Source: Prochlorococcus marinus bv. HNLC1 (GTDB lineage: Bacteria > Cyanobacteriota > Cyanobacteriia > PCC-6307 > Cyanobiaceae). Taken from it: 64,000 nucleotides of DNA. This document shows positions 1 through 34,341 of this stretch, piece after piece (positions within the stretch are counted from its first letter, which is position 1; each line of letters opens with the position of its first letter). The notes under the pieces were generated by a model. It searched no databases. It was not told the origin of the DNA and worked only from the letters and a program-made list of their open reading frames with translations. The position numbers and the translations under genes are program-made. The stretch covers positions 580,358 through 644,357 of the forward strand of contig GL947594.1 in assembly GCA_000218705.1 (NCBI GenBank). The letters run 5' to 3'.

Positions 1-379
1 AATTCAGTGCCCATAATTTATTTAATCCGATCAAAGTTGCAGCAGCATTACTTGATCCACCTGCCAAACCAGCTCCAATAGGAATATTCTTATTTAAAAA
101 AATATTTGCACCTAAATTCCTATGTGGATAATAACTTCTTAGGATATTTGCTGTTTTAATAATCAAATTATCGTCTTCTAAATCAAGTTCAGTATTATTT
201 GAACTTAAATTTATACTCCCACTAGCATTAAGTTCAATTTCTAAATAATCTTCAAGATTGATGCTTTGCATTAACATTGCGAGTTCATGATATCCATCTT
301 TTCTCTTACCCAAAACTTCTAAATGAAGATTTATTTTAGCTGGAGATACTACAGTTATTTTACTATTCTTAAATTCCAC
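1..379 (-). CDS. ispE: 4-diphosphocytidyl-2-C-methyl-D-erythritol kinase (partial, C-terminus beyond left edge)
   Basis: IspE is the GHMP-family kinase of the non-mevalonate (MEP) isoprenoid pathway. It phosphorylates CDP-methylerythritol and so feeds carotenoid, phytol and quinone synthesis. The reverse strand reads from a GTG at 379 (VEFKNSKITVVSPAKINLHL) and reaches the GHMP glycine-rich ATP loop PIGAGLAGGSSNAAA before the window ends. About 126 N-terminal residues are present out of roughly 310. It lies 13 bp downstream of rsmA on the same strand, the usual rsmA-ispE operon of cyanobacteria. GTG was chosen because no in-frame ATG gives the conserved N-terminus. Confidence 0.93.
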   Translation of the reverse strand, partial: MEFKNSKITVVSPAKINLHLEVLGKRKDGYHELAMLMQSINLEDYLEIELNASGSINLSSNNTELDLEDDNLIIKTANILRSYYPHRNLGANIFLNKNIPIGAGLAGGSSNAAATLIGLNKLWALN

Positions 380-392
380 GGTTACTACTAGT

Positions 393-1214
393 TCAACTTC
401 TTATAGTATTACAAAGCTTGGCTAATTTAATCCATTTTTCTATAGAAATATCTTGAGGTCTCAAATTAAAGTTTATTTCTGATTGTTTTTCTAAATTTGA
501 AATATTTTCTTTTGAGAAAACTGAACATAATGTATTTCTAAGTTTTTTTCTTCTAGCATTAAATGTAATTTTAAGAAGATTTTCTATAGTTTTTTCAGTT
601 TCAAGATCTAATCTTGAACTTAAGGACAACGGAGTAAAAGAAATTAATGAAGAATATACCTTTGGGGGAGGGTTAAAAGATGAAGGATGAATATCACATA
701 TTTTTTTCACCCCTGAAAGAAGTTTTATTCTTGTACTAAGGGCACCATTATTACTATTACCTTCTTTCGCAATTATTCTATCTACAACATCTTTTTGCAT
801 TAAAAATATTATTTTTTTTAAATTATATTTTGGTAACTTACCTAATCTTCCTATAAATAAATCTAATATTGGACCAGTAATATTGTAAGGAATATTAGCT
901 ATTACTTTTGTAAATTGACTACTATTTTTTAGATTTATTGAGAGAATATCTCCTTGTTCTAATGAAAAATTATCTTTTTTAGAAAACTTATTTTCTAAAA
1001 ATTTTATTAAATCCATATCTAACTCAACTGCATGCAACCCTTTTATATTTGAATCTAATAATCTCGAAGTAAGAGCACCTTTCCCTGGACCTATCTCTAA
1101 AATAAAATCTTTTTCATTAAGATCTGCATTTTTTTTTATTTTTTCTAGTATTTCATCGTTTATTAACCAATGTTGACCAAATCTTTTTTTTGGAATAGAA
1201 CTTTTTAAATTCAT
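393..1214 (-). CDS. rsmA: 16S rRNA (adenine1518/1519-N6)-dimethyltransferase RsmA/KsgA
   Basis: This 273-aa enzyme dimethylates two adjacent adenosines in the 3' hairpin of 16S rRNA late in 30S assembly, using SAM. Visible signatures are the N-terminal RFGQHWL (about 11-17), the SAM-binding loop [10 protein letters not shown] (40-49), the acidic GDI after strand 4 (about 88-90) and the catalytic NIPYNIT motif (107-113). Length matches the family. It precedes ispE by 13 bp. The divergent small gene begins 36 bp upstream, so the two share a promoter region. Confidence 0.97.
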
Positions 1215-1249
1215 TCAAAATTTAAATATAATATTTTAATATTTATTAT

Positions 1250-1624
1250 ATGAAATTTATAGTTTTACCACTCATGGCTTTATCAAAAAAGAATTTAGAT
1301 CAATTAAAATCGATTTTAAATAAAGAGAATATTATTAAACATAATATTCCTGATAAAAGTTCAATCTCTGATTCAAAATCTTTAGAGAAAGATCAACCGA
1401 TAGAAGTTAATAATCCCAATCAAATCTTTTATTCAATAATAGATAATTCTGAACATTTAGAAGATACTGTTTTAAGTAACAATAAATTGAAGAAAATTGA
1501 AGAAAAATTAGTTAAAGATAAAAAATATTATCCTATTGATAAAAAAATTAATTCTCAAAGAAATAATCAATTATCAGAAGAAGATTTATTATATGACGAA
1601 TTCAATTATCTTTTGGATGAATAA
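1250..1624 (+). CDS. Hypothetical acidic/lysine-rich protein, 124 aa
   Basis: I do not recognise the family. The protein begins [19 protein letters not shown] and then becomes highly charged (Lys, Glu, Asp, Asn), with no cysteines, membrane segment or catalytic motif and an acidic tail [15 protein letters not shown]. The start could equally be the ATG at 1274 (MALSKKNL), which would remove a short hydrophobic stretch. It sits 20 bp upstream of rlmH, so the two are probably co-transcribed. The composition suggests a largely disordered or helical protein. Confidence 0.7.
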
Positions 1625-1644
1625 TATTTATCAATTTTTTATTT

Positions 1645-2067
1645 ATGTTAATTACCAATAGAATATCAATAAATGCTATCGGCAAGATTAAAAAATCTTG
1701 GATAGCGGATGGAATTAATCAATATAGAAAACGAATGCCTAAACTATCAATTTATGAATTTAAAGATTTTAAATTTAATAACCTGAGAAATCTCTATCAA
1801 AATAATATTATTATTAGCCTCACCGAAGAAGGTAAATTATTCAATTCTCATGATTTCTCTTCCTTACTTTTAAATTTTGATAATAAGAAAATTTCTTTTT
1901 TTGTAGGTGATGCAGATGGGCTTTCAAATAATATAAAATCTAACTCTGATCTGCTTCTAAGCCTTTCTCCTCTAACCTTTCCACATGAGCTTGCACGTTT
2001 AATATTAATTGAGCAAATTTATCGAGCCGTTTCTATCTCACAAAACTCTCCATACCATCGATCCTGA
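1645..2067 (+). CDS. rlmH: 23S rRNA (pseudouridine1915-N3)-methyltransferase RlmH
   Basis: RlmH is a SPOUT-class SAM methyltransferase acting on pseudouridine 1915 of helix 69 in assembled 70S ribosomes. The 140-aa protein shows the knot motif [10 protein letters not shown] and the very conserved C-terminus [18 protein letters not shown]. The central part (residues about 40-75) is more diverged than in E. coli RlmH, and the protein is slightly shorter than the usual 155 aa. It follows the 124-aa hypothetical gene by 20 bp. Confidence 0.92.
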
Positions 2068-2117
2068 AATATTTCTTCAATAAATCATAACTCATTTAAC
2101 CATACAAACTAATATAT

Positions 2118-2131
2118 AGTACATATATACT
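2118..2131 (+). promoter_or_regulatory. Putative LexA (SOS) box upstream of umuD
   Basis: The near-palindrome AGTACATATATACT lies 26 bp before the umuD ATG. Read on the opposite strand, it fits the cyanobacterial LexA consensus RGTAC-N3-D-GTWCB with one mismatch. A TATAAA-like -10 directly follows or overlaps it, so a bound repressor would block RNA polymerase. The position before an SOS mutagenesis operon supports the call. I have not seen lexA in this window. Confidence 0.7.
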
Positions 2132-2157
2132 ATAAAGATATTAGGTATAGGGCTGTA

Positions 2158-2553
2158 ATGAAAAAGACAGGATTACCATTGCTAAGTTTCTCTGTATCAG
2201 CAGGATTTCCTTCTCCTGCTGATGACTATACAGAAGAGAATATAGATCTAAATGAATATTTAATACAAAATCCTTTTAGTACTTTTTTCATAAGAGTTAA
2301 AGGTGATTCAATGATAAATTCGGGAATTCAAGATCAAGACCTGATAGTCGTAGATAAAAGCATAATTGCAAAACCAGGAGATATTGTAATCGCGATTATA
2401 GATGAAAGATTTACTGTAAAACGGCTAGAGAAGAAGGATGATACTTTTTATTTAAAAGCAGAAAATCGTAATTATCCAGATTTACATTTAAAAAATTATA
2501 GTAATATGCAAATCTGGGGTGTTGTCATATATTCGATACATAATTGCAGGTAG
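2158..2553 (+). CDS. umuD: UmuD-like translesion-synthesis accessory protein (S24 self-cleaving peptidase)
   Basis: UmuD is cleaved with RecA assistance, and its processed form partners UmuC as DNA polymerase V. The 131-aa protein has a probable Ala15-Gly16 cleavage bond (VSAGFPSP), the catalytic serine in VKGDSM (Ser51) and the catalytic lysine in FTVKRL (Lys88), followed by RNYPDL typical of S24 peptidases. Length matches UmuD and not LexA, because no N-terminal DNA-binding domain is present. umuC starts 10 bp downstream. A LexA box lies in the promoter, so SOS control is likely. Confidence 0.95.
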   Translation: MKKTGLPLLSFSVSAGFPSPADDYTEENIDLNEYLIQNPFSTFFIRVKGDSMINSGIQDQDLIVVDKSIIAKPGDIVIAIIDERFTVKRLEKKDDTFYLKAENRNYPDLHLKNYSNMQIWGVVIYSIHNCR

Positions 2554-2563
2554 ATAATTAAAA

Positions 2564-3835
2564 ATGAATGCTATAGCTTTGATCGATGGAAATAATTTTT
2601 ATGCATCATGCGAGCAAAGTATTAATCCATCTTTAAGAAATAAACCATTAGTAATTTTATCTAACAATGATGGATGCATTATTGCGCGAAGTGCAGAAGC
2701 TCGTATTTTAAAAATAAGGATGGGAGAACCTTATTTCAAAATAAAGGAGAGACTAAATAAATTAGGAGTAATAGTTTTGAGTTCAAACTATTCACTTTAT
2801 GGCGATATGAGTAAAAGATTAATGAATTTATTAAAAAAAAATTGTGAGAAAATAGAAATTTACTCTATTGACGAAGCATTCATCTCTATACATAGACCAC
2901 ATAATAAAGATTTATCTCCTTGGGCAAGGAAATTAAGAACTTTGATATATCAGAATCTAGGCTTAACGATCACAATTGGGATTGCTGAAAATAAATTAAG
3001 AGCAAAATTAGCTAATAAATTAGCAAAAAGAATTAATTATTCAGCTGGTATATTTGATCTGGGAATTACAAATAATAAAAATTCGTATTTAAAAGAAATT
3101 AACGTAGATAATATTTGGGGCATTGGGACTCAAACTTCACGATGGTTAAGAAGTAAAGGAATTAAAAATGCTAAAGAATTAAAAGATATGAATCAGCATG
3201 AGTTAAAAAAGAAATTAGGAGTTGTAGGACAAAGAATACAACTAGAATTAAAAGGTTATCAATGCCTTCCCATAGAAGAGAAGAGAAATCAAAAAAAAGA
3301 AATTCGTGTTAGCAGAAGTTTTAGTCAACCAATAACAAAATTAGAAGAGTTGAAACATGCTTTAGCAATTTACGCAATAAGAGCATCAGAAAAAATGAGG
3401 GCTCAAAATTTGCAAGCCTCTGCCATCACAATTTTTACAAGAACTAGTCATTATTCAAAATTTAATTATCAAAAAAGTGCTTATAAGAAACTTATTGAGG
3501 CAACTAACGATACAAATATCATTTTAAAAATAGTCATTGAATTATCTAAAGAAATTTATCATCCTGAATATAAATTAACCAAAGCAGGTGTTTTAATGCA
3601 AGAGTTAAGTGAATTTACTTACTTTCAAAAATCAATCCTAAATTACTCTTCTAAAAACAAATCAGACAAAGAAAGAAAACTAATCCAAACGATTGATTCT
3701 CTAAATAATAAATTTAATAATGAAGTCATTACATGGGGTATTGCAAAAAAGAATCAATCATGGGGTATGAATAGGAAATTATTAAGTGGTACATCAATTA
3801 CCGATATTGAGAAAATTCCAACTATAATTATTTAA
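2564..3835 (+). CDS. umuC: DNA polymerase V catalytic subunit UmuC (Y-family)
   Basis: UmuC is a Y-family translesion polymerase that copies past UV lesions. The 423-aa protein starts with the metal-binding MNAIALIDGNNFY (Asp8), carries SIDEAF (Asp103-Glu104) as the second metal site, has a helix-hairpin-helix thumb (IWGIGTQTSRWL) and ends with the UmuC-type C-terminal domain (AKKNQSWGMNRKLLS), all in usual order and length. It is in an operon with umuD. Two in-frame tryptophan-rich C-terminal motifs distinguish it from DinB. Confidence 0.96.
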   Translation: MNAIALIDGNNFYASCEQSINPSLRNKPLVILSNNDGCIIARSAEARILKIRMGEPYFKIKERLNKLGVIVLSSNYSLYGDMSKRLMNLLKKNCEKIEIYSIDEAFISIHRPHNKDLSPWARKLRTLIYQNLGLTITIGIAENKLRAKLANKLAKRINYSAGIFDLGITNNKNSYLKEINVDNIWGIGTQTSRWLRSKGIKNAKELKDMNQHELKKKLGVVGQRIQLELKGYQCLPIEEKRNQKKEIRVSRSFSQPITKLEELKHALAIYAIRASEKMRAQNLQASAITIFTRTSHYSKFNYQKSAYKKLIEATNDTNIILKIVIELSKEIYHPEYKLTKAGVLMQELSEFTYFQKSILNYSSKNKSDKERKLIQTIDSLNNKFNNEVITWGIAKKNQSWGMNRKLLSGTSITDIEKIPTIII

Positions 3836-3847
3836 TATTGTATTAAA

Positions 3848-4312
3848 ATGGAATTTATTATATTTCTAAATAAATTAGATAAAGACATACTTGAATTAAT
3901 AAAGAAAGCCAATTATTCAATAGAAGAAAATTCTGCTTTATGTTTAATAGATAAAAAATATATTGGATTCCATAAAAAGAGAGAAAAAGAAATTGTTATA
4001 TGTACTAAAAACGCGAAAAATATAACCAATTTCACAAATAAAATAAGATCAAATAATAAAGATAATCACAAAACAAAACTCTATATAAGGAGAGCACTAA
4101 GACATGAAGCAACGCATATGATTCAAGCATGCAATGGTGATAAAATAATTGGAGATATAAATGAGATAAAAAAGAAAATAAATAAAAACAAAGAAAAAGC
4201 AATTAAATCTTCAGTAAGAATATCTGGAAATTATGAGAAAGAATTGGAAGCTTATATGATGGAGGATAAACCTAGAAAAGTTAAAAAAGCAATAATTAGA
4301 TATTGTTTGTAA
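3848..4312 (+). CDS. Small HExxH (zincin-like) hypothetical protein downstream of umuC
   Basis: The 154-aa basic protein has no name I can give with certainty. It contains RHEATHMIQ, a HExxH zinc-protease signature (His86-Glu87-His90), and a later ELEAYMMED (about 132-140) whose glutamate could be a third metal ligand, as in gluzincins. The protein has no signal peptide or membrane segment, so it would act in the cytoplasm. It begins 12 bp after umuC and may belong to the SOS operon. It is convergent with dnaG, 8 bp apart. Peptidase activity is inferred only from the motif. Confidence 0.75.
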   Translation: MEFIIFLNKLDKDILELIKKANYSIEENSALCLIDKKYIGFHKKREKEIVICTKNAKNITNFTNKIRSNNKDNHKTKLYIRRALRHEATHMIQACNGDKIIGDINEIKKKINKNKEKAIKSSVRISGNYEKELEAYMMEDKPRKVKKAIIRYCL

Positions 4313-4320
4313 GAATATTA

Positions 4321-6349
4321 TTAATTATTTAAAGCATACTTTCCACATCTTTGCTTATCAAGAGAAAAAATATGCTGCCTTTCAAGGTAATAGAGATTTT
4401 GAAACTTTAGAGCATCGGAATTTAAATCTTTAAAAAGATCATCTATTTCTATTGAAGAATCTGAAGTTTGCGAGGAATTTCTATCAATTAAAATTGAAAT
4501 GCAATTTTCTAAAGTATTTAATCTTTGAGAACTCCAGGATTCAATGAGGTGTCTACATCGTTTTAAAGATTTGTATCTTTCTAAAAGAGATAAATTTCCA
4601 AGTAAGTTTCTTTTGGAATTAGTTAATGTTGCAAGAAGTATTTCATTTGGATTAATAAAAAAGCTAAGTTTATTAATAATTTCCGGATGACTAATAGAAA
4701 TAGAATCAGTAACTAATTTAAGCAAATTAAGATCAAAAAATTCATTTTTTAACTTAGAGTCTCTAATCTTATTCAAATAATTATCTCCAAAATTCAACTC
4801 TTCAACTTTAGAAATAGAATCCCAAATTATCTTATGATGATCAACAGAGAAGCATTCAATTTCACGATTAATCAATTCATCTCTAATAAAGATTCTTAAA
4901 TTTGGCGAATGTAAATAATAGAAAATTATTTCAGATTCATTCTTTTCTCTTTGATTTACTTCATTTGGGAGTTCAAATTTTTGCGATCTTCCATGCCATC
5001 TAAATCCTTTAATTTGTTTTCTTAAATCTTCTTCAAATTTGATTGCCAATCTTGCTTGGCCCATACTTAATCTTTCAGAAACCTTTTGAAGATAATGAGT
5101 CCTAGTCGCAGATTGAGGTAACTTACTTAAGAACTTTACGAGGGCAGTAACAACACTTTGAAAATTCTCTACTTTTGATAAATCTTTATTTAAAAATATT
5201 TGATCTAATTCCCAATCGATCCAGAAAGAAGCATTATCAATCAAGTTGAAATAATCGACTGCTGAATTTTGATTTAAATATTCATCAGGATCTTTGAATC
5301 CACTTAGTTGAAGTATCTTTAAATTTATTTGCTGATTTAAAGATAAACTTTCTACTTCAGCAATAATTCTTTTTGTTGCTGAAATGCCTGCATTATCAGA
5401 GTCAAAATTAATAACAATATTTTTATTATCTGTACATCTACATAATTGTGATATCTGATACTTACTCAAGGATGATCCCTGAGCTGCTACACAGTTGTTA
5501 ATTCCCTTTGCATGGAGTGATATAACATCAAAATTACCCTCAACAACTATCGCTAAATCTTTTTTTCTAATATTGCTTGAAGCCTTATCGAATCCATAAA
5601 GAATTTTTCCTTTCTCAAAGACATCTGTTTCTGGAGAATTTAAATACTTCGGATTTGATCCGTCTAGTGTTCTTCCAGTAAATCCTACAACTCTACTTTG
5701 GGAATCATATATAGGTACCATTAATCTATTCCGAAATCTATCAAAGACTTTATTTTTATTATCTTTGGAAATAATTAATCCAGCATTTAGAATAGCTTCA
5801 TAAGAAAATCCTTTAACTTTTAGCAGATATTCATATAAGCTTGTCCAAGAATTAGGAGCAAAGCCCAATTCAAATTCCTCAATTATATTTTTACTTAATT
5901 TCCTATCATTTATTAAATAATTATATGCATTATTTCCAAGAGTAGCTATTTAACTGTGTTTTGAACCAATTCTTTGTTTCTCTTAAAATTTTAAATAATT
6001 CTTCTCTTTTAGATAATTGTTTTTTATAGTTTTCTTGTTGATTAGCATCAACTGTAACAATATTAATATCATTTTTCCTTGCTAAAGATAATACAACATC
6101 TGAGAAATTATTCCGAGTAAATTCCATTAAAAACTTGATGGAATTGCCTCCAGCACCACATGAAAAACAATAATAAAACTGTTTGGAAGGTGAGACCGTC
6201 ATTGACGGTTTACTATCATCATGGAAAGGGCAAATACCAACATATTCCTTACCCCTCTTTTTTAAGACCACATGTTCAGATATAACATCAACGATATCTG
6301 CTTTTTCTTTGACCTCCTGTATAGTTTTGGGATGAATAGAGGAACCCAT
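4321..6349 (-). pseudogene. dnaG: DNA primase DnaG, interrupted by a +1 frameshift
   Basis: DnaG makes RNA primers for replication and is essential. The first reading frame (6349 down to 5930, 139 aa) holds the CHC2 zinc-binding domain with Cys40, His43, Cys61 and Cys64. It stops at a TAA at 5932-5930. The second frame (open from just upstream of the break to 4321) carries the RNA-polymerase core with TOPRIM glutamate in VVEGNFDVI and the helicase-binding C-terminal part. Frame 2 continues the protein as GNNAYNYLINDRKLS across the break. The shift lies in the TGGAAA run at 5933-5940. One extra base explains it. Sequence error is most likely, with programmed +1 shifting or two functional subunits as alternatives. 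Confidence 0.9.
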
Positions 6350-6470
6350 AGAATTGGCTTAATTAAAAATTAAAAATATTATTAAGTTATAAATCATAAT
6401 TATCAAAGAATCTACTTAAATTCACAAAATAATTATTTTTAAAATTATTACTTTAATAAAGAAAGTACTA

Positions 6471-7343
6471 ATGAAGATAAATAACTTTAATAAATTTTAT
6501 CTTGTATTTGCTTCATTATTTTTTAGTTTAATGACTGTTTGCGTTAAAAAAATTGATGAATCAATTCCAATTTATGAACTAGTTTTCTTTAGATCTGTAT
6601 TTAGTTTAATAATTACATCAATAATAATAAGAAAAAAGAAAATTAATCCATGGGGTAAAAATAAAGGTCTTCTAATTGTTAGAGGATTACTGGGAACAAT
6701 AGCGTTGATGTGTATATTTTATTCAATAAGAAATATGCCTCTAAGTATTTCAACTGTAATTCAATACACCTATCCCATCTTTATTTCAATATTTGCAGTG
6801 TTTCTAATTAAAGAAAGAATAAACTTTAATTTAATACTTGCTTTATTTTTAGGATGGTTTGGGATATTAATAATTTTAAATCCTTATCAATCAACATCAT
6901 ATGAAATTGATAAATTTGCTGTTTTTATAGCATTTACTGGCGCTGTAACAACATCATTAGCCTACATAGCAGTTAAGAAATTATCTAGACAAGAAGATAT
7001 ATTTATCATAATCAAATATTTTCCTTTAATTTCTGTCATAACATTAATCCCAATTGTTTACGCGAATTGGATTACACCACAAATAAATGATCTAATTTGG
7101 ATAATTGGCATTGGAATATTTACCCAAGCAGGTCAAACTTTTCTAACTCTAGGTTTAAAAAATTTACCAGCATCACAAGCTTCATCAATAAATTATTTAC
7201 AAGTTATTTTTGGCTCTTTATGGGGAATTTATATATTTGGAGAAAACATAACTATAAATTTTGTAATTGGATCAATTTTTGTTTTATTAGGAACTATTAT
7301 TTCTACTAGCAAAATACAAAAAACAGATTTACAATTGAAATAA
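6471..7343 (+). CDS. EamA/DMT-family transporter (10 TM)
   Basis: This 290-aa inner-membrane protein belongs to the drug/metabolite transporter superfamily. About ten hydrophobic helices form two EamA repeats. The end of the first repeat, TVIQYTYPIFISIFAVFLIKERI, and of the second, ASSINYLQVIFGSLWGIYIFGENI, are the duplicated signature. Substrate cannot be read from sequence; amino acids or other small metabolites are typical. It precedes a secreted 116-aa protein by 13 bp. Confidence 0.9.
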   Translation: MKINNFNKFYLVFASLFFSLMTVCVKKIDESIPIYELVFFRSVFSLIITSIIIRKKKINPWGKNKGLLIVRGLLGTIALMCIFYSIRNMPLSISTVIQYTYPIFISIFAVFLIKERINFNLILALFLGWFGILIILNPYQSTSYEIDKFAVFIAFTGAVTTSLAYIAVKKLSRQEDIFIIIKYFPLISVITLIPIVYANWITPQINDLIWIIGIGIFTQAGQTFLTLGLKNLPASQASSINYLQVIFGSLWGIYIFGENITINFVIGSIFVLLGTIISTSKIQKTDLQLK

Positions 7344-7356
7344 GATATCTTAAATA

Positions 7357-7707
7357 ATGAAAGTAATTCTTCTTACAATATTTAGTTTGATGCCGTTTCA
7401 GCAAGTATTGGCATCAACCCCTAAATCTGTAACATGTACAAGAACAGAATATAGAGAAGAATATATTCCTGGAACAAAGTCAAATCCTGGTTACGTCAGA
7501 AATTATGAAGTTGATGTTGAGATCCCATGTGGAGGAGCTCAATCTCAAAATACTGATATCAATGACTGCAGTGAAGGCTCAGTAATTGGAGGACTGTTAG
7601 GGGCTGGGCTAGCTATTTCAAGTTCAAGAGGAAAAGATAGGTGGTGGGCAATTCCAGCGGGCGGTACAGCTGGAGCCCTAATAGGATGTCAAGTTGACGG
7701 AGGTTAA
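7357..7707 (+). CDS. Secreted glycine-zipper hypothetical protein
   Basis: The 116-aa protein has a signal peptide (cleavage likely after QVLAS, about residue 20). A cysteine-containing domain follows (VTCTRTEYREEYIPG), then a glycine-rich C-terminal segment, SVIGGLLGAGLAISS and AIPAGGTAGALIGCQ. That segment resembles the glycine-zipper (17-kDa surface antigen/Rick_17kDa) fold of envelope proteins. It is therefore probably periplasmic or outer-membrane associated. Its stop codon directly abuts the ruvA start. Confidence 0.8.
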   Translation: MKVILLTIFSLMPFQQVLASTPKSVTCTRTEYREEYIPGTKSNPGYVRNYEVDVEIPCGGAQSQNTDINDCSEGSVIGGLLGAGLAISSSRGKDRWWAIPAGGTAGALIGCQVDGG

Positions 7708-8697: not shown

Positions 8698-9144
8698 ATG
8701 GCGAAGAAAAGATCAAAAAAAAATAATTCATCAAAAAAAATATCTACTCAAAGTAATGCATTTCAAGATTTAGAAAAGGATGTTAAAACAAATAATTCTA
8801 AAGTTCAATCAAGTGGAATTCCTAAATATGTAGCAGATAGAATGGCAAAAAGAATATTTTTTACAGCAGGAATTCCTACTTTACTAGGAATGTCAGTTTT
8901 TGTTATTAGTTATATCATTGTTACTAGGAAAATAGCAGAAATACCTCCTTCTTCTACAATTGCTATTTCAGCATTATTCTTCCTATTAGGTTTAGGAGGA
9001 TTAAGCTATGGAATTTTATCCGCCAGTTGGGATAGAGCTCCTGGAAGCTTTCTAGGTTTAGAAAATATTCCATTGAATATACAAAGAGCTAAAGCAGCAT
9101 TCAAACCAGCTTCTCAGAATTTTGATGAAGCAAAGAAAAATTAA
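8698..9144 (+). CDS. PAM68 family protein (DUF3464), photosystem II assembly
   Basis: PAM68 proteins assist early photosystem II assembly at the thylakoid membrane. This 148-aa protein has a lysine/serine-rich N-terminus, the conserved IPKYVADRMAKRIFFTAGIP segment, two transmembrane helices (about 59-78 and 90-110) and the family's ASWDRAPGSFLG motif after the second helix. Length and layout match DUF3464. Its last 4 bp overlap the convergent dnaE stop. Confidence 0.9.
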   Translation: MAKKRSKKNNSSKKISTQSNAFQDLEKDVKTNNSKVQSSGIPKYVADRMAKRIFFTAGIPTLLGMSVFVISYIIVTRKIAEIPPSSTIAISALFFLLGLGGLSYGILSASWDRAPGSFLGLENIPLNIQRAKAAFKPASQNFDEAKKN

Positions 9145-12100
9145 GAGACTAAAGATTGCAAGTTAACATTAAATGAATTTGACTCTAAAAGTTTTGCGGC
9201 ACCATTAATATCACTTACACAGAATTGATCACCAAATTTTACATAAGTAACAGAATCATTAGATTTTACTGCCGCCAATACTGGGGTTTTCACACCACAC
9301 TTATCTCTATCTGCTTTAAACTTTATTAAGCAATTCCTTATTTTATTTTGCACTCTAATATCAGATGCCTGTTCACATTTGAGATTTATTATTAATAATT
9401 TTAGATTATCAATTTCTCTGCAATCTTCAACAATCAATTGTGTCTTATCACTTCTTTTATCAATAGTACCCCATACAAGAAGTCTAGTATCTGTGATCAA
9501 AAATTCAGAAAGTCTAAGATAAGTTTTAGGAAAAACTACTGCTTCGCAAGTCCCTGATAAATCCTCAAGTTGTATAATTGCCATCCTGTCACCTTTTTTA
9601 GTTGTAATTTGCCTTAATTCTGGAATCATTCCAACTAAACTAATTTTACTTTTATCTTTAAATTCTTCTAATAAAGAGATACTAATAGGTGAGATTAATC
9701 TAGCAGGCTTAGAAAGATGCTTAAGAGGATGATCAGACAGATAAAAACCTAAAAGCTGCTTTTCTAATCTTAGTTTCTCTATTAGAGTATAATCTTCTAC
9801 TTTAGTATTCTTATTTAAAGAAATATCTAAACTATCAATTTTATTATCAATATCAAATAAATTTCCTTGTCCAGAAATACGATCACGATTTCTTGACGCA
9901 GCCCATTCAGTCACATACTCAAGATCAGCTAATAATTGCGCTCTATTTTTATCCTTAGAAAATTCATCAAGGGCTCCACAATGAATTAATGATTCTAGAT
10001 TCCTTTTATTTAAAATGTTAACAGGTAACCTATCGCATAAATCTGATAATGATTTAAAAGCTCCAAATTTATTTCTATTATCAATAATATTTTTAATTGC
10101 GGAATCACCTAAATTCTTGATAGCAGATAATCCAAATAATATTTGTTCGTTTTTTATCGTAAAATCATATCCAGATAAATTTATGCTGGGAGATATAACT
10201 TCTATTCCCATTGAATAACAATTAGAAATATATCGTTGCATCTTATCAGTGGAACCTGAATTTACAGACAATAAAGCTGCCATATAAGCAACAGGAAAAT
10301 GTGCTTTTAAGAATGCTGTTTGATAAGTAACAGCCCCATAAGCGGTAGAGTGACTTTTATTAAAGCAATACTCAGCGAATAAAACCATTTGATCAAAAAG
10401 ATCATTAGCTATTTTCTTATCTACTCCTTTATTAATTGAACCTTCGATAAAAATACTTCTATGTTTAACCATCTCTGAAACTTTTTTCTTACCCATCGCC
10501 CTTCGAAGTAAATCTGCATCGCCAAGAGAATATCCTGCTAAATCTTGAGCGATTTTCATAATCTGTTCTTGATAAACCATTATTCCGTATGTTTCAGTCA
10601 GTATTGATTCAATAAATGGATGTGGAAAATCAATTTTTTCAGAGCCATTTTTTCTCTTAATAAATTTTGGTATCAATCCTGCATCAAGAGGTCCTGGTCT
10701 GTACAAAGCTAAAATCGATGAAATATCTTCTAATGAATTAGGCTTGAAATCTTTAACAACCTGCTTCATACCAGAAGATTCCAATTGAAATATACCTTCT
10801 AAATCTCCTCTACCAATAAGATTAAAAGTTTTTGTATCATTTTCTGGCAATGTATCAAGATTTATTTTTGTTCCTGTCGAAGATTCTATTAATGAAACAG
10901 TTTTATTAAGCATTGTAAGATTTTTTAATCCAAGAAAATCCATTTTTAGAAGACCTAGAGACTCAATATCATCCATTGAGTATTGAGTAATAATTTGACC
11001 ATCATTATTCCTCTGTAAGGGTACAAGTTTATCAAGGCGCTCTGATGATATAACAACTCCCGCGGCATGGACTCCGTATGTTTTATTGGTTCCTTCAATT
11101 CTGATAGCTAAATCAACCCACTTTTTTACCTTACTATCATTAGTATATTTTTCTAGAAATTCTGGAGTTGGTGTATTTTTATCTATCATCTCATTTAATT
11201 TATATGGTTTGCCTCTAACTACTGGAATTAATTTTGCTAACTTATCTGACTCGCCATAAGGTATATCAAGAACTCTTGCCACATCTTTTAATACGGCTTT
11301 AGAGGTCATTTTATTAAATGTAATTATTTGAGCAACTTTTTCTTCTCCATATCGATCGGTTACATATTCAATAACTTCATTTCTTCTATCAATACAAAAG
11401 TCCGTATCAATATCAGGCATAGATTTTCTTGCAGGATTTAAAAACCTTTCAAAAAGTAATCCATGCTTAACTGGATCAATATTAGTAATTTGTAAAGAAT
11501 ATGCGACCAGTGATCCTGCCGCTGATCCTCTCCCTGGGCCAACAGGAATAGAGTTATCTCTAGCAAATTTAATATAATCCCAAACAACTAAAAAATAATC
11601 AGGGAAGCCCATATCCTCAATAATTTTTAACTCAGTATTTAATCTTTTTTTATACTCATCACTTATCTCTTGGAAGGAGTTTTTAAACAATCTTTTCTTT
11701 AAACCATCTTCTGATACTTCCTTGAGAAAATCTATAGCCTTTTTATTTTCTAATAAAGGATACTTTGGCATTCTATATTCACCAAATAATTCAAAAATTT
11801 CGACCTTATTTGAAATCTCAGTTGTATTGTTGATAGCTTCTCTAATTATTTCCATATCAATATGATCTCGAAAAAGATTTAACATCTCTTCCTCTCCTTT
11901 TATATATTCAGTTCCTGTGTACCTCAGTCTTTTTTGATCACTAATTAATTTACCTGTCAAAACGCAAAGTAAAGCATCATGAGCTCCAACATCCTTATTG
12001 GATATATAGTGAGCATCATTAGTTGCAATAATCTTAATACCATACTTTTTACCTATTCTAATTATTTCTATATTTACAACTCTGTCTTCAATAGATCCAT

Positions 12101-12647
12101 GATCTTGTATTTCTAAATAAAAGTCTTCACCAAAAACTTTTTGATACCATTTTGCAGTATTCTCAGCAACATCGATTCTACCTTTTAAAATTGCCTGAGG
12201 AATTTCACCACCTAAACATGCTGTCGAAATAATTAATCCTTCTTTATACTTTTGAAGCAAACGCTTATCAATACAAGGTCTTGAAAATATTCCCCTACCT
12301 CGCATACCATTTAAATGACTTAAAGTAGTTAATTTAACTAGATTCTTATATCCAACATAATTTTTTGCTAAGACAACCAAATGATATCTCTTTTCTTTCT
12401 TAGGTTGAGGATCATCTATAGAGCCATTTATTATATACATTTCGTTACCAATTATTGGTTTAATATCATATTTCTTACAGGTTTTAACTAATTCAAGAAC
12501 ACCATACATAACTCCATGATCCGTTAGAGCAATACTTTTCATGCCAAGTTGATTGGCTCTTTCTACGATTTTTGGAACCTGACTAGCCCCATCAAGCAAA
12601 CTATAATCACTATGGTTATGTAAAGGAACAAATCCCATTCTTGGCAA
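9141..12647 (-). CDS. dnaE: DNA polymerase III subunit alpha
   Basis: DnaE is the replicative polymerase. The 1168-aa protein contains an N-terminal PHP domain (HNHSDYSLLDG at 10-20, LTDHGVMYG), the palm with GPGRGSAAGS (370-379) and the catalytic aspartates in PDIDTD (Asp412, Asp414), a further metal aspartate in KMDFLGLKN, a double helix-hairpin-helix region and an OB fold (EAVVFPKTY). Length is typical of DnaE1. The start ATG is 12-15 residues before the PHP motif, as expected. It is transcribed away from gatA with a 69-bp gap. Confidence 0.98.
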   Translation of the reverse strand: MPRMGFVPLHNHSDYSLLDGASQVPKIVERANQLGMKSIALTDHGVMYGVLELVKTCKKYDIKPIIGNEMYIINGSIDDPQPKKEKRYHLVVLAKNYVGYKNLVKLTTLSHLNGMRGRGIFSRPCIDKRLLQKYKEGLIISTACLGGEIPQAILKGRIDVAENTAKWYQKVFGEDFYLEIQDHGSIEDRVVNIEIIRIGKKYGIKIIATNDAHYISNKDVGAHDALLCVLTGKLISDQKRLRYTGTEYIKGEEEMLNLFRDHIDMEIIREAINNTTEISNKVEIFELFGEYRMPKYPLLENKKAIDFLKEVSEDGLKKRLFKNSFQEISDEYKKRLNTELKIIEDMGFPDYFLVVWDYIKFARDNSIPVGPGRGSAAGSLVAYSLQITNIDPVKHGLLFERFLNPARKSMPDIDTDFCIDRRNEVIEYVTDRYGEEKVAQIITFNKMTSKAVLKDVARVLDIPYGESDKLAKLIPVVRGKPYKLNEMIDKNTPTPEFLEKYTNDSKVKKWVDLAIRIEGTNKTYGVHAAGVVISSERLDKLVPLQRNNDGQIITQYSMDDIESLGLLKMDFLGLKNLTMLNKTVSLIESSTGTKINLDTLPENDTKTFNLIGRGDLEGIFQLESSGMKQVVKDFKPNSLEDISSILALYRPGPLDAGLIPKFIKRKNGSEKIDFPHPFIESILTETYGIMVYQEQIMKIAQDLAGYSLGDADLLRRAMGKKKVSEMVKHRSIFIEGSINKGVDKKIANDLFDQMVLFAEYCFNKSHSTAYGAVTYQTAFLKAHFPVAYMAALLSVNSGSTDKMQRYISNCYSMGIEVISPSINLSGYDFTIKNEQILFGLSAIKNLGDSAIKNIIDNRNKFGAFKSLSDLCDRLPVNILNKRNLESLIHCGALDEFSKDKNRAQLLADLEYVTEWAASRNRDRISGQGNLFDIDNKIDSLDISLNKNTKVEDYTLIEKLRLEKQLLGFYLSDHPLKHLSKPARLISPISISLLEEFKDKSKISLVGMIPELRQITTKKGDRMAIIQLEDLSGTCEAVVFPKTYLRLSEFLITDTRLLVWGTIDKRSDKTQLIVEDCREIDNLKLLIINLKCEQASDIRVQNKIRNCLIKFKADRDKCGVKTPVLAAVKSNDSVTYVKFGDQFCVSDINGAAKLLESNSFNVNLQSLVS

Positions 12648-12716
12648 TATTCATATTTATAAGATAATGAAATTTATAAAAAGATCTATAAAAAATAAAA
12701 GATATTAATTATTAAT

Positions 12717-32585: not shown

Positions 32586-32852
32586 TTAAAAGCTAAATTC
32601 CCTACAAAAATCCCAAATTTTTTGTTTTTTTAATTGTTTAGTCAGTTTTGATAATTTTTTAAAGTTGCTTTGTGATTTATCTACAAGAATTAATCTACAT
32701 AAATAATTTATTTCGTAATAACTGGTTAACTTATTTAGATTAAATGAAATATTTGTGAAAAGAACAGCAAAAAAGGTAATTATTGATATCGCAAGCGATA
32801 ATGACAATCTATCTGAAAATCTATTTTGATCAGTTTTTATTTCAAATTTCAT
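32586..32852 (-). CDS. Hypothetical membrane protein, 88 aa
   Basis: The start ATG (32852-32850) overlaps the preceding stop as TAATG, giving MKFEIKTDQNRFSDRLSLSL and then one hydrophobic helix (AISIITFFAVLFTNISF). The C-terminal half is Lys-rich (SKLTKQLKKQKIWDFCREF). A longer start eight codons upstream exists but is less likely. It is convergent with the ABC exporter, 6 bp apart. The function is unknown. Confidence 0.6.
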   Translation of the reverse strand: MKFEIKTDQNRFSDRLSLSLAISIITFFAVLFTNISFNLNKLTSYYEINYLCRLILVDKSQSNFKKLSKLTKQLKKQKIWDFCREFSF

Positions 32853-33079
32853 TATTCCATAATATATTTTGGGCATTTAACTGCCGCTACAGCTATAGCA
32901 GCTACCTTAAAATTGTCTGACTCTTCAATTACATTTTTTACTTTTAAAGGTCCAAACTCATAACTAGCATCACTATATGCCAATAAAAGAGATTTATAAT
33001 TATCATAACCAGTATCTCTATATTCACAAAAATTATTTCCAACTAGATTTAATAAGGTCAATAGACTCAATTCAACCAT
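32852..33079 (-). CDS. Hypothetical protein, 75 aa
   Basis: The protein reads MVELSLLTLLNLVGNNFCEY, then RDTGYDNYKSLLLAYSDASY and a C-terminal AAIAVAAVKCPKYIME. Two cysteines frame a compact helical pattern typical of folded small cyanobacterial proteins. It is translationally coupled (TAATG) to the membrane protein downstream. The family is not recognised, but the composition differs from random A+T-rich translation. Confidence 0.65.
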   Translation of the reverse strand: MVELSLLTLLNLVGNNFCEYRDTGYDNYKSLLLAYSDASYEFGPLKVKNVIEESDNFKVAAIAVAAVKCPKYIME

Positions 33080-33237
33080 AATTTTTTAATTAATAAGCAC
33101 TTTTATGAATAATACATTGAATATTAAGTAATTCAAGTTAAAAATTAAATAAGAAAATATACAAGTAATTTTAAATTTAAAGATTTTAAATAAATCATAT
33201 ATATTAAAGAACTAATCAATAATTTCAATGTCAACAC

Positions 33238-33358
33238 TATCTGTAGCGCTTAATTGATCAATTAAATCCGCTACAGGTGGGGGCTTGCAATTTACTCGAA
33301 TTTGGTTTAAAAATAAAGTTCCCCATCACCTGGCTTCACGGTTGTGAAGCCTTTTTTT
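33238..33358 (+). ncRNA. Candidate structured small RNA with intrinsic terminator
   Basis: Three helices can be drawn in about 120 nt without a coding sequence. First, CTGTAGCG (33241-33248) pairs with CGCTACAG (33269-33276), with a self-complementary TTAATTGATCAATTAA inside. Second, GGTGGGG pairs with CCCC-AT-CACC near 33321-33330. Third comes a GC-rich terminator hairpin followed by T7. A TATATT-like -10 lies near 33200. It sits alone between two minus-strand genes. I cannot match it to a named cyanobacterial RNA. Confidence 0.6.
33332..33358 (+). terminator. Rho-independent terminator
   Basis: GGCTTCAC-GGTT-GTGAAGCC forms a perfect 8-bp GC-containing stem with a tetraloop followed by seven T. 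It is the clearest intrinsic terminator in the window and reads on the plus strand, where no protein gene ends, so it must terminate an RNA gene. Confidence 0.85.
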
Positions 33359-33546: not shown

Positions 33547-34341
33547 CTAATATAAGTTAAATAATTTAAATATTAATGTTAAACCAATTAAAAAACATAA
33601 GCATGTAAAAAGTTTCTTAATAAATTTATTTCCCTTTAAATTTGACAAATGTGCACCACTAAATCCTCCCAGAAAAGAACCCAATATTAATATACTTATA
33701 ATATTTAAAGGCAAAGAACCTATCTTACTTAGTGCTATAGCTCCTGCGGCATTCCAAAAGATTCCTACAGTAAGAAAAGTAATGCTAATTGAAGTAAGAA
33801 AATCTAGGCCGAATGTCTGAATTAATAAAATAGTTACCAATAAACCTGTGCCAGAAGATATTGAACCATTTAAGATTCCAATAATAAATGCTAAAACATT
33901 AAATTTAATATAAGTATATGGCCCAATTTTCTTTTGAATAGATATCAACCCTAAATTAGGCTTAATAAAGGAATAATATCCCAGTAATATAGTAAAAATT
34001 GCTAATAATAAATACAAATACTCATCGGATATTAATGAGACAATAAAGGTTCCTAAAATAACTCCTGGAATACCAAATATTATTAATTGAAAAACTACCA
34101 AATAATTTTTTTCTATATTTTTATAGTTTCTTATCGAACCTCCAATTCCTAGTGCTACAGTTGCAATTTTATGAACAGCAAGAGCTTTATAATAAGGTAT
34201 TCCAAATAATATTAAGGCTGGCAATTGAATTAAACCTGCGCCCCCGCCTGCAATTGAGGAAAATACATTAGATAAGTATGAAATAATAAAAATTATAAAT
34301 TGGCTTAAAATATTTAGATCTTGATTAATATGAGAATCCAA
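33547..34341 (-). CDS. TSUP (TauE/SafE) family permease
   Basis: The 264-aa membrane protein belongs to the TSUP sulfite/organic-sulfonate exporter family. It has eight hydrophobic helices in two repeats, the first with NVFSSIAGGGAGLIQLPALI and the second with GILNGSISSGTGLLVTILLI. These glycine-rich loops (GGGAG/SGTG) are the family signature. The substrate may be a sulfur or organic anion. It stands alone between the small RNA and the HNH gene. Confidence 0.88.
   Translation of the reverse strand: MDSHINQDLNILSQFIIFIISYLSNVFSSIAGGGAGLIQLPALILFGIPYYKALAVHKIATVALGIGGSIRNYKNIEKNYLVVFQLIIFGIPGVILGTFIVSLISDEYLYLLLAIFTILLGYYSFIKPNLGLISIQKKIGPYTYIKFNVLAFIIGILNGSISSGTGLLVTILLIQTFGLDFLTSISITFLTVGIFWNAAGAIALSKIGSLPLNIISILILGSFLGGFSGAHLSNLKGNKFIKKLFTCLCFLIGLTLIFKLFNLY

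Follow-up and report, generated by a model that had tools for sequence, protein, structure and literature searches.

Prochlorococcus has few protein regulators. One RNA that bears on its transcription machinery is 6S RNA, which binds the holoenzyme. No small RNA (sRNA) is known to us that base-pairs with a principal sigma factor gene at its start site, and a search of the open literature for such an sRNA found none. Other described sRNAs that invite comparison with the locus analyzed here include the Yfr RNAs. Steglich et al. (2008; PMC2518516) tabulated 14 new non-coding RNAs of strain MED4, Yfr8–Yfr21 (their Table 1). Of Yfr22–29, Yfr100–108 and the 152 candidate intergenic regions of MED4 in PMC7368042, Yfr28 is the one given a place in the text, between ftsQ and ftsZ, which is not our locus. 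The paper on Yfr1 and Yfr2 reports no sigA/rpoD.

The locus lies in a 64,000-nucleotide stretch of the Prochlorococcus marinus bv. HNLC1 genome (the window), in which a sequence-only reading had singled out positions 33238–33358 as a stand-alone, structured, non-coding RNA that it could not name. None of the 4227 Rfam families tested reached its gathering threshold in this region, and none did so in a permissive scan either.

Evidence for a conserved stand-alone RNA gene

Comparison with homologues showed that the element is real and that its conserved unit begins at 33235 rather than at 33238. The features discussed below, with the two flanking genes, are as follows.

33235..33358, plus strand: conserved small-RNA gene, from homologues and the score of covariance model R1; transcription may start within this stretch or ahead of it
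33235..33248, plus strand: left motif CACTATCTGTAGCG, almost invariant and with the consensus CACTA-N4-TAGTG (alignment columns 1–14, 118 unique loci)
33241–33248 and 33269–33276, plus strand: 8-bp stem formed by CTGTAGCG and CGCTACAG, seen in the sequence
33249..33267, plus strand: hypervariable segment of fixed length (19 nt in 115 of 118 unique loci), including the 16-bp palindrome
33250–33265, plus strand: 16-bp palindrome TTAATTGATCAATTAA, seen in the sequence
33268..33279, plus strand: right motif CCGCTACAGGTG, consensus nCRCTACAGATA (nCRCTA-N4-TRG), complementary to the left motif
33279..33283, plus strand: invariant G run, pairing with CCCC at 33321–33324
Plus strand: second helix, GGTGGGG pairing with CCCCATCACC, seen in the sequence
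33319..33336, plus strand: putative antisense seed UUCCCCAUCACCUGGCUU, complementary to GGCCAGGGTGATGGGGA at the rpoD start
33332..33358, plus strand: intrinsic terminator with an 8-bp stem, GGTT loop and T7, from a terminator scan and compensatory changes
32852..33079, minus strand: conserved 75-amino-acid ORF with no Pfam match, divergent from the RNA gene
33547..34341, minus strand: TauE/SafE-family permease gene (Pfam PF01925), convergent with the RNA gene

All the pieces of the structure originally described, two long helices with a 16-bp palindrome inside a perfect 8-bp stem, are present in the sequence. The plus strand of 33235–33358 folds with an energy of −40.1 kcal/mol (z −3.98; none of 200 dinucleotide shuffles did as well), and the copy scores 129 bits with model R1. 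The strong terminator that had been claimed was borne out by the scan: the stem at 33332–33351, with eight pairs (five of them G-C) and a 4-nt loop, followed by T7 at 33352–33358, is the sole terminator-like site of the region, and 0.0 were expected from shuffles.

The element was present in 48 of the 50 genomes of the genus with at least 97% completeness, with no match at E 0.001 in G025 and G145, which are near-complete genomes of the same genus; there it may have been lost or may fall in an assembly gap. When 200 genomes of the genus were searched at the nucleotide level, about 150 had clear homologues among the matches listed, and nearly every high-light Prochlorococcus genome checked carries a member of the family. 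Gene order was identical in all 16 of the 12-kb neighbourhoods compared. An ABC transporter of three genes is followed by two small ORFs on the minus strand, then by the RNA and the minus-strand TauE permease. As the sequence-only reading had it, both flanking ORFs lie on the other strand; this synteny in 16 of 16 genomes and the element's own terminator agree with a stand-alone, non-coding gene on the plus strand. At one locus (L161, in G004) the permease gene is absent and the RNA and all other neighbours are kept, which argues against an RNA role tied to the TauE neighbour.

In the 118 unique homologues the parts follow a single order: left motif, 19-nt segment, right motif, GGGG, A/U-rich hairpin region, TTCCCCATCACC and terminator. 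The invariant portion, GGGG...UUCCCCAUCACC, lies 5′ of the terminator. Across 58 homologues the whole proposed structure exceeded 500 of 500 shuffles on every measure, and two-sided compensatory changes (19 cells versus 3.1 in shuffles, with none of 500 as high) fell mostly in the terminator stem, five of whose eight pairs showed them. The pairing of GGGG with CCCC was retained in 58 of 58 sequences (57 of 58 for one pair); because it never varies, it provides no covariation evidence.

The first helix fared differently from the terminator stem. Its arms are complementary, and at their variable positions they paired no more often than shuffled arms (92.7% of cells versus 92.2%, with 88 of 500 shuffles as high), and cells with two-sided changes were not significantly enriched (17 versus 12.9, with 46 of 500 shuffles as high). 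Maintenance of pairing in this helix as a conserved RNA stem is not supported here, though it may exist. Covariation is clear in the terminator stem and not significant in the first helix, on which the sequence-only reading had laid weight. Taken over all of these comparisons, the element is very probably a real, conserved and unclassified sRNA gene.

A multicopy family

A covariance model search, which had been proposed as a check, found members in 44 of 151 genomes of the taxonomic family, in 14 of 34 genera. Genomes of low-light genera carry up to six copies. In many copies a second CCCCATCAC block lies upstream, at a spacing of 111–156 nt: at a second high-light locus (L208–L214, L264–L270) two CCCCATCAC seeds stand 111–113 nt apart and the 19-nt spacer is conserved, and in low-light strains the two seed blocks are spaced by 144–156 nt. 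In one low-light genus, two copies about 17 kb apart have opposite, outward orientations (431577, minus strand, and 448278, plus strand, in G264), an arrangement that recurs in G241, G286, G295, G304 and G313; the region between such opposed copies contains hli, PTOX-like and pstS genes.

MED4 has three copies of the family, at 936,711–936,837 (plus strand; the counterpart of the element), 772,355–772,479 (minus strand) and 348,853–348,968 (plus strand), and none of Yfr8–Yfr21 in Table 1 of PMC2518516 coincides with them. Transcript length and gene order had hinted at Yfr13 or Yfr19, an identity that the MED4 coordinates rule out. The Rfam model of Yfr19 (RF02366) matches MED4 at 1,086,081–1,086,162 on the minus strand, exactly the coordinates given in PMC2518516, and it matched neither the element nor nine other scanned loci. 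Later screens may already include the transcript, or a name for it, in their supplements.

Two loci in genera without a model match, L440 (G212) and L437 (G228), have paired TCCCCATCAC blocks 196–204 nt apart, which look related to the family. Between these blocks lie TTATCCACA / TTTTCCCACA-like sequences, which we take to resemble DnaA boxes.

A phage origin of the family was considered and rejected. The high-light pattern had no match in 2.9 million viral contigs, and other viral pattern matches were not homologues. One viral contig (L250, IMGVR_UViG_3300006565_001309) has a low-light copy at 10598–10729; its positions 1–7511 match P-SSM2-like cyanophages and its positions 8821–12657 are 93% identical to a low-light host chromosome. 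Because the contig is part phage and its RNA-bearing part is host-like, it is likely chimeric, and we left it uncounted.

Complementarity to the rpoD start codon

Outside the family, each of the four genomes searched (the element's own genome, MED4, MIT9301 and one low-light genome) contains GGTGATGGGGA, the reverse complement of the invariant block, a single time, and always at the rpoD start codon. The gene concerned, recognizable as rpoD/sigA from its sequence, encodes a group-1 sigma factor of ~340 amino acids (MGIPLES...RVPLLT...), and the start region of its mRNA reads GGAGGCCAGGGTG-ATG-GGGATCC. The duplex predicted between the element's own seed and its own rpoD has an energy of −35.3 kcal/mol. 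Among 54 control start regions in the window the strongest duplex had −14.1 kcal/mol, and among 917 start regions taken from all loci, −20.0 kcal/mol; the controls are mechanically chosen ORF starts rather than curated genes, and the 54 from the own genome span 64 kb. The high-light seeds and the 3′ and 5′ seeds of low-light copies differ in their flanking letters, and all of them reached −35 to −40 kcal/mol on rpoD (z about −9 to −10), with the low-light 5′ seed lengthening the match to GATCCCCATCACCC. In every sRNA copy a single bulge or mismatch occupies one fixed position, just before GGCC, and lineages differ in the change that makes it (CACC-TGGCC, CACCC-GGCC or CACCCAGGCC); in our reading, the perfect complement, CCCTGGCC, is found at the rpoD loci themselves. 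A search of the literature for the seed sequence found nothing.

Because the most conserved part of the RNA is complementary to the rpoD start codon, the RNA probably controls the amount of the main sigma factor. We consider it quite likely that rpoD is the main target, and the model that we favour, with good though lesser confidence, is that the element is a stand-alone gene for a trans-acting sRNA of a picocyanobacterial family outside Rfam that would pair at the rpoD start codon and block the initiation of translation. In this model, the sRNA would pair with 5′-GGCCAGGGUGAUGGGGA-3′ at the rpoD start codon, beside the GGAGG ribosome-binding site. Covering the start codon would prevent initiation on rpoD mRNA, and the family probably represses rpoD translation. 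The invariant internal GGGG, by pairing with the seed, would keep it masked until a signal or a partner opened it. In the predicted fold of the element the left motif competes for a neighbouring GAUAG, and exposure of the seed could therefore differ between a longer and a shorter transcript. In low-light Prochlorococcus the task at rpoD would be divided among several copies, in many of which a second seed lies closer to the 5′ end.

The conservation of the site in rpoD calls for some caution. The start region CCAGGGTGATGGGGA is conserved at the nucleotide level across most of the taxonomic family (L405–L421, L350, L357, L359 and L364), and equally so in G228 and G240, two genera in which the model detected no member of the RNA family. 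As the site is conserved also where the RNA is not found, its conservation alone does not prove co-evolution or maintenance by the RNA, and the RNA may have acquired a seed that matches a site under some other constraint. The seed and the site are both invariant and compensatory change between them is absent, and there is thus no compensatory evidence to link them.

That same invariance leaves room for a reading in which the sRNA is real and its match to rpoD incidental, with CCCC-AUCACC kept for folding with GGGG, as in a structural or protein-binding RNA or a sponge; the retention of the GGGG/CCCC pairing in essentially all 58 sequences would be expected on that account. However, AUCACC and the GGCC that follows it lie outside the GGGG/CCCC pairing and also match rpoD, an exact 11-mer is expected only ~0.1 times per genome (our own estimate from base composition) and is found at the same start codon in four of four genomes, and the second seed of the paralogues lengthens the match on the other side (GATC). 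We therefore regard an incidental match as unlikely.

A hypervariable segment of fixed length

The paired motifs at the 5′ end enclose the least conserved part of the element. Where the flanking genes of two genomes are 91% identical at fourfold-degenerate sites, their 19-nt segments share 36% identity over the inner 14 nt, versus 30% for shuffled segments. Even in pairs at least 95% identical over the 40 nt just upstream, the segment is merely 41% identical, and recent import of the whole locus is therefore not an easy explanation. The second locus of the family serves as a control: over ten genomes, its equivalent 19-nt segment is 90% identical, compared with 35% at the main locus. The differences between closely related segments are scattered substitutions, of both kinds, and the length stays constant.

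The 16-bp palindrome that was prominent in the sequence-only reading falls within this segment, which has almost no sequence conservation, and is missing in relatives; the weight placed on it is not supported. We accordingly dropped the palindrome as a functional feature; on this comparison it is evidently a one-species accident, one allele of the 19-nt segment. We also rejected the segment as a guide or antisense to neighbouring DNA, since its longest exact matches within ±3 kb (sense or antisense) equalled those of segments swapped between genomes (8.36 for own versus 8.35 for swapped, and 8.32 versus 8.34). The MED4 segment had no good second site in the MED4 genome. Diversifying selection and local hypermutation are candidate causes of the hypervariability. 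A fixed length with near-random sequence between close relatives, at a locus whose paralogue has a conserved segment, is a puzzle separate from that of rpoD. The joint proposition, that the family is devoted to controlling the housekeeping sigma factor post-transcriptionally and that the high-light main copy bears an actively diversifying, length-locked 19-nt segment whose turnover exceeds that of neutral sites more than 10-fold, we put forward tentatively, giving it a little less than an even chance.

The layout of the motifs could also suggest that GGGTGATGGGGA / TCCCCATCACCC is a DNA site for a protein that binds at rpoD and at these loci, which would then be regulatory DNA and not RNA genes: CACTA-N4-TAGTG and its partial inverse, held 19 bp apart around a free spacer, resemble paired protein-binding sites, and the two arms lack significant covariation as an RNA helix. 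This explanation fits less well with a motif followed by a terminator that shows covariation, with the constant orientation of the motif relative to the terminator in the 3′ seeds, and with the finding that other copies of CACTANNNNTAGTG in the genomes are no more frequent than chance predicts, and we judge it very unlikely. The left motif as the operator of a regulon was likewise rejected, as it had an exact match only at its own locus in five genomes, bar matches at the level of chance. Least probable of all is that the element belongs to a longer mRNA, as its leader or 3′ end, or is antisense RNA to a neighbour: a scan gave no convincing sigma-70 promoter at the element (four promoter-like sites versus 4.3 expected, a chance level), as such a reading would predict, but the neighbours lie on the opposite strand in every compared genome, the RNA survives the loss of the downstream gene in L161, no conserved ORF runs through it and its paralogues occupy other gene contexts.

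Comparison with known systems

The first reading missed three features: the invariant CCCC-AUCACC block with its complementarity to rpoD, the multicopy family, and the hypervariable segment of fixed length. If the model is true, global transcription in the ocean's most abundant phototroph would be linked to RNA control through an RNA that sets the amount of its main, housekeeping sigma factor; the copy number in low-light strains suggests a strong or multi-signal input.

Among RNAs of other bacteria, enterobacterial OmrA-B (RF00079) has in common with the element two hairpins before a U tract, and its match, the best in the permissive scan, is at chance level (20.8 bits versus a gathering score of 40, E 0.08). 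6S RNA (ssrS, Yfr7) has no match in the window. Both RNAs would act on the principal sigma factor's output, and the element differs from 6S RNA in being predicted to pair with rpoD mRNA. The closer likenesses are to the Yfr RNAs. Like Yfr1–Yfr21 of MED4 (PMC2518516, PMC1242208), the element is short, stand-alone, terminator-ended, intergenic and restricted to Prochlorococcus, and like Yfr2–5 its family is multicopy. The antisense-type sRNAs Yfr1 and Yfr2 differ from the element in their motif, and neither Rfam model matches in the window; what they share with it is a short, ultraconserved, single-stranded motif that is taken to be the seed for binding mRNA.
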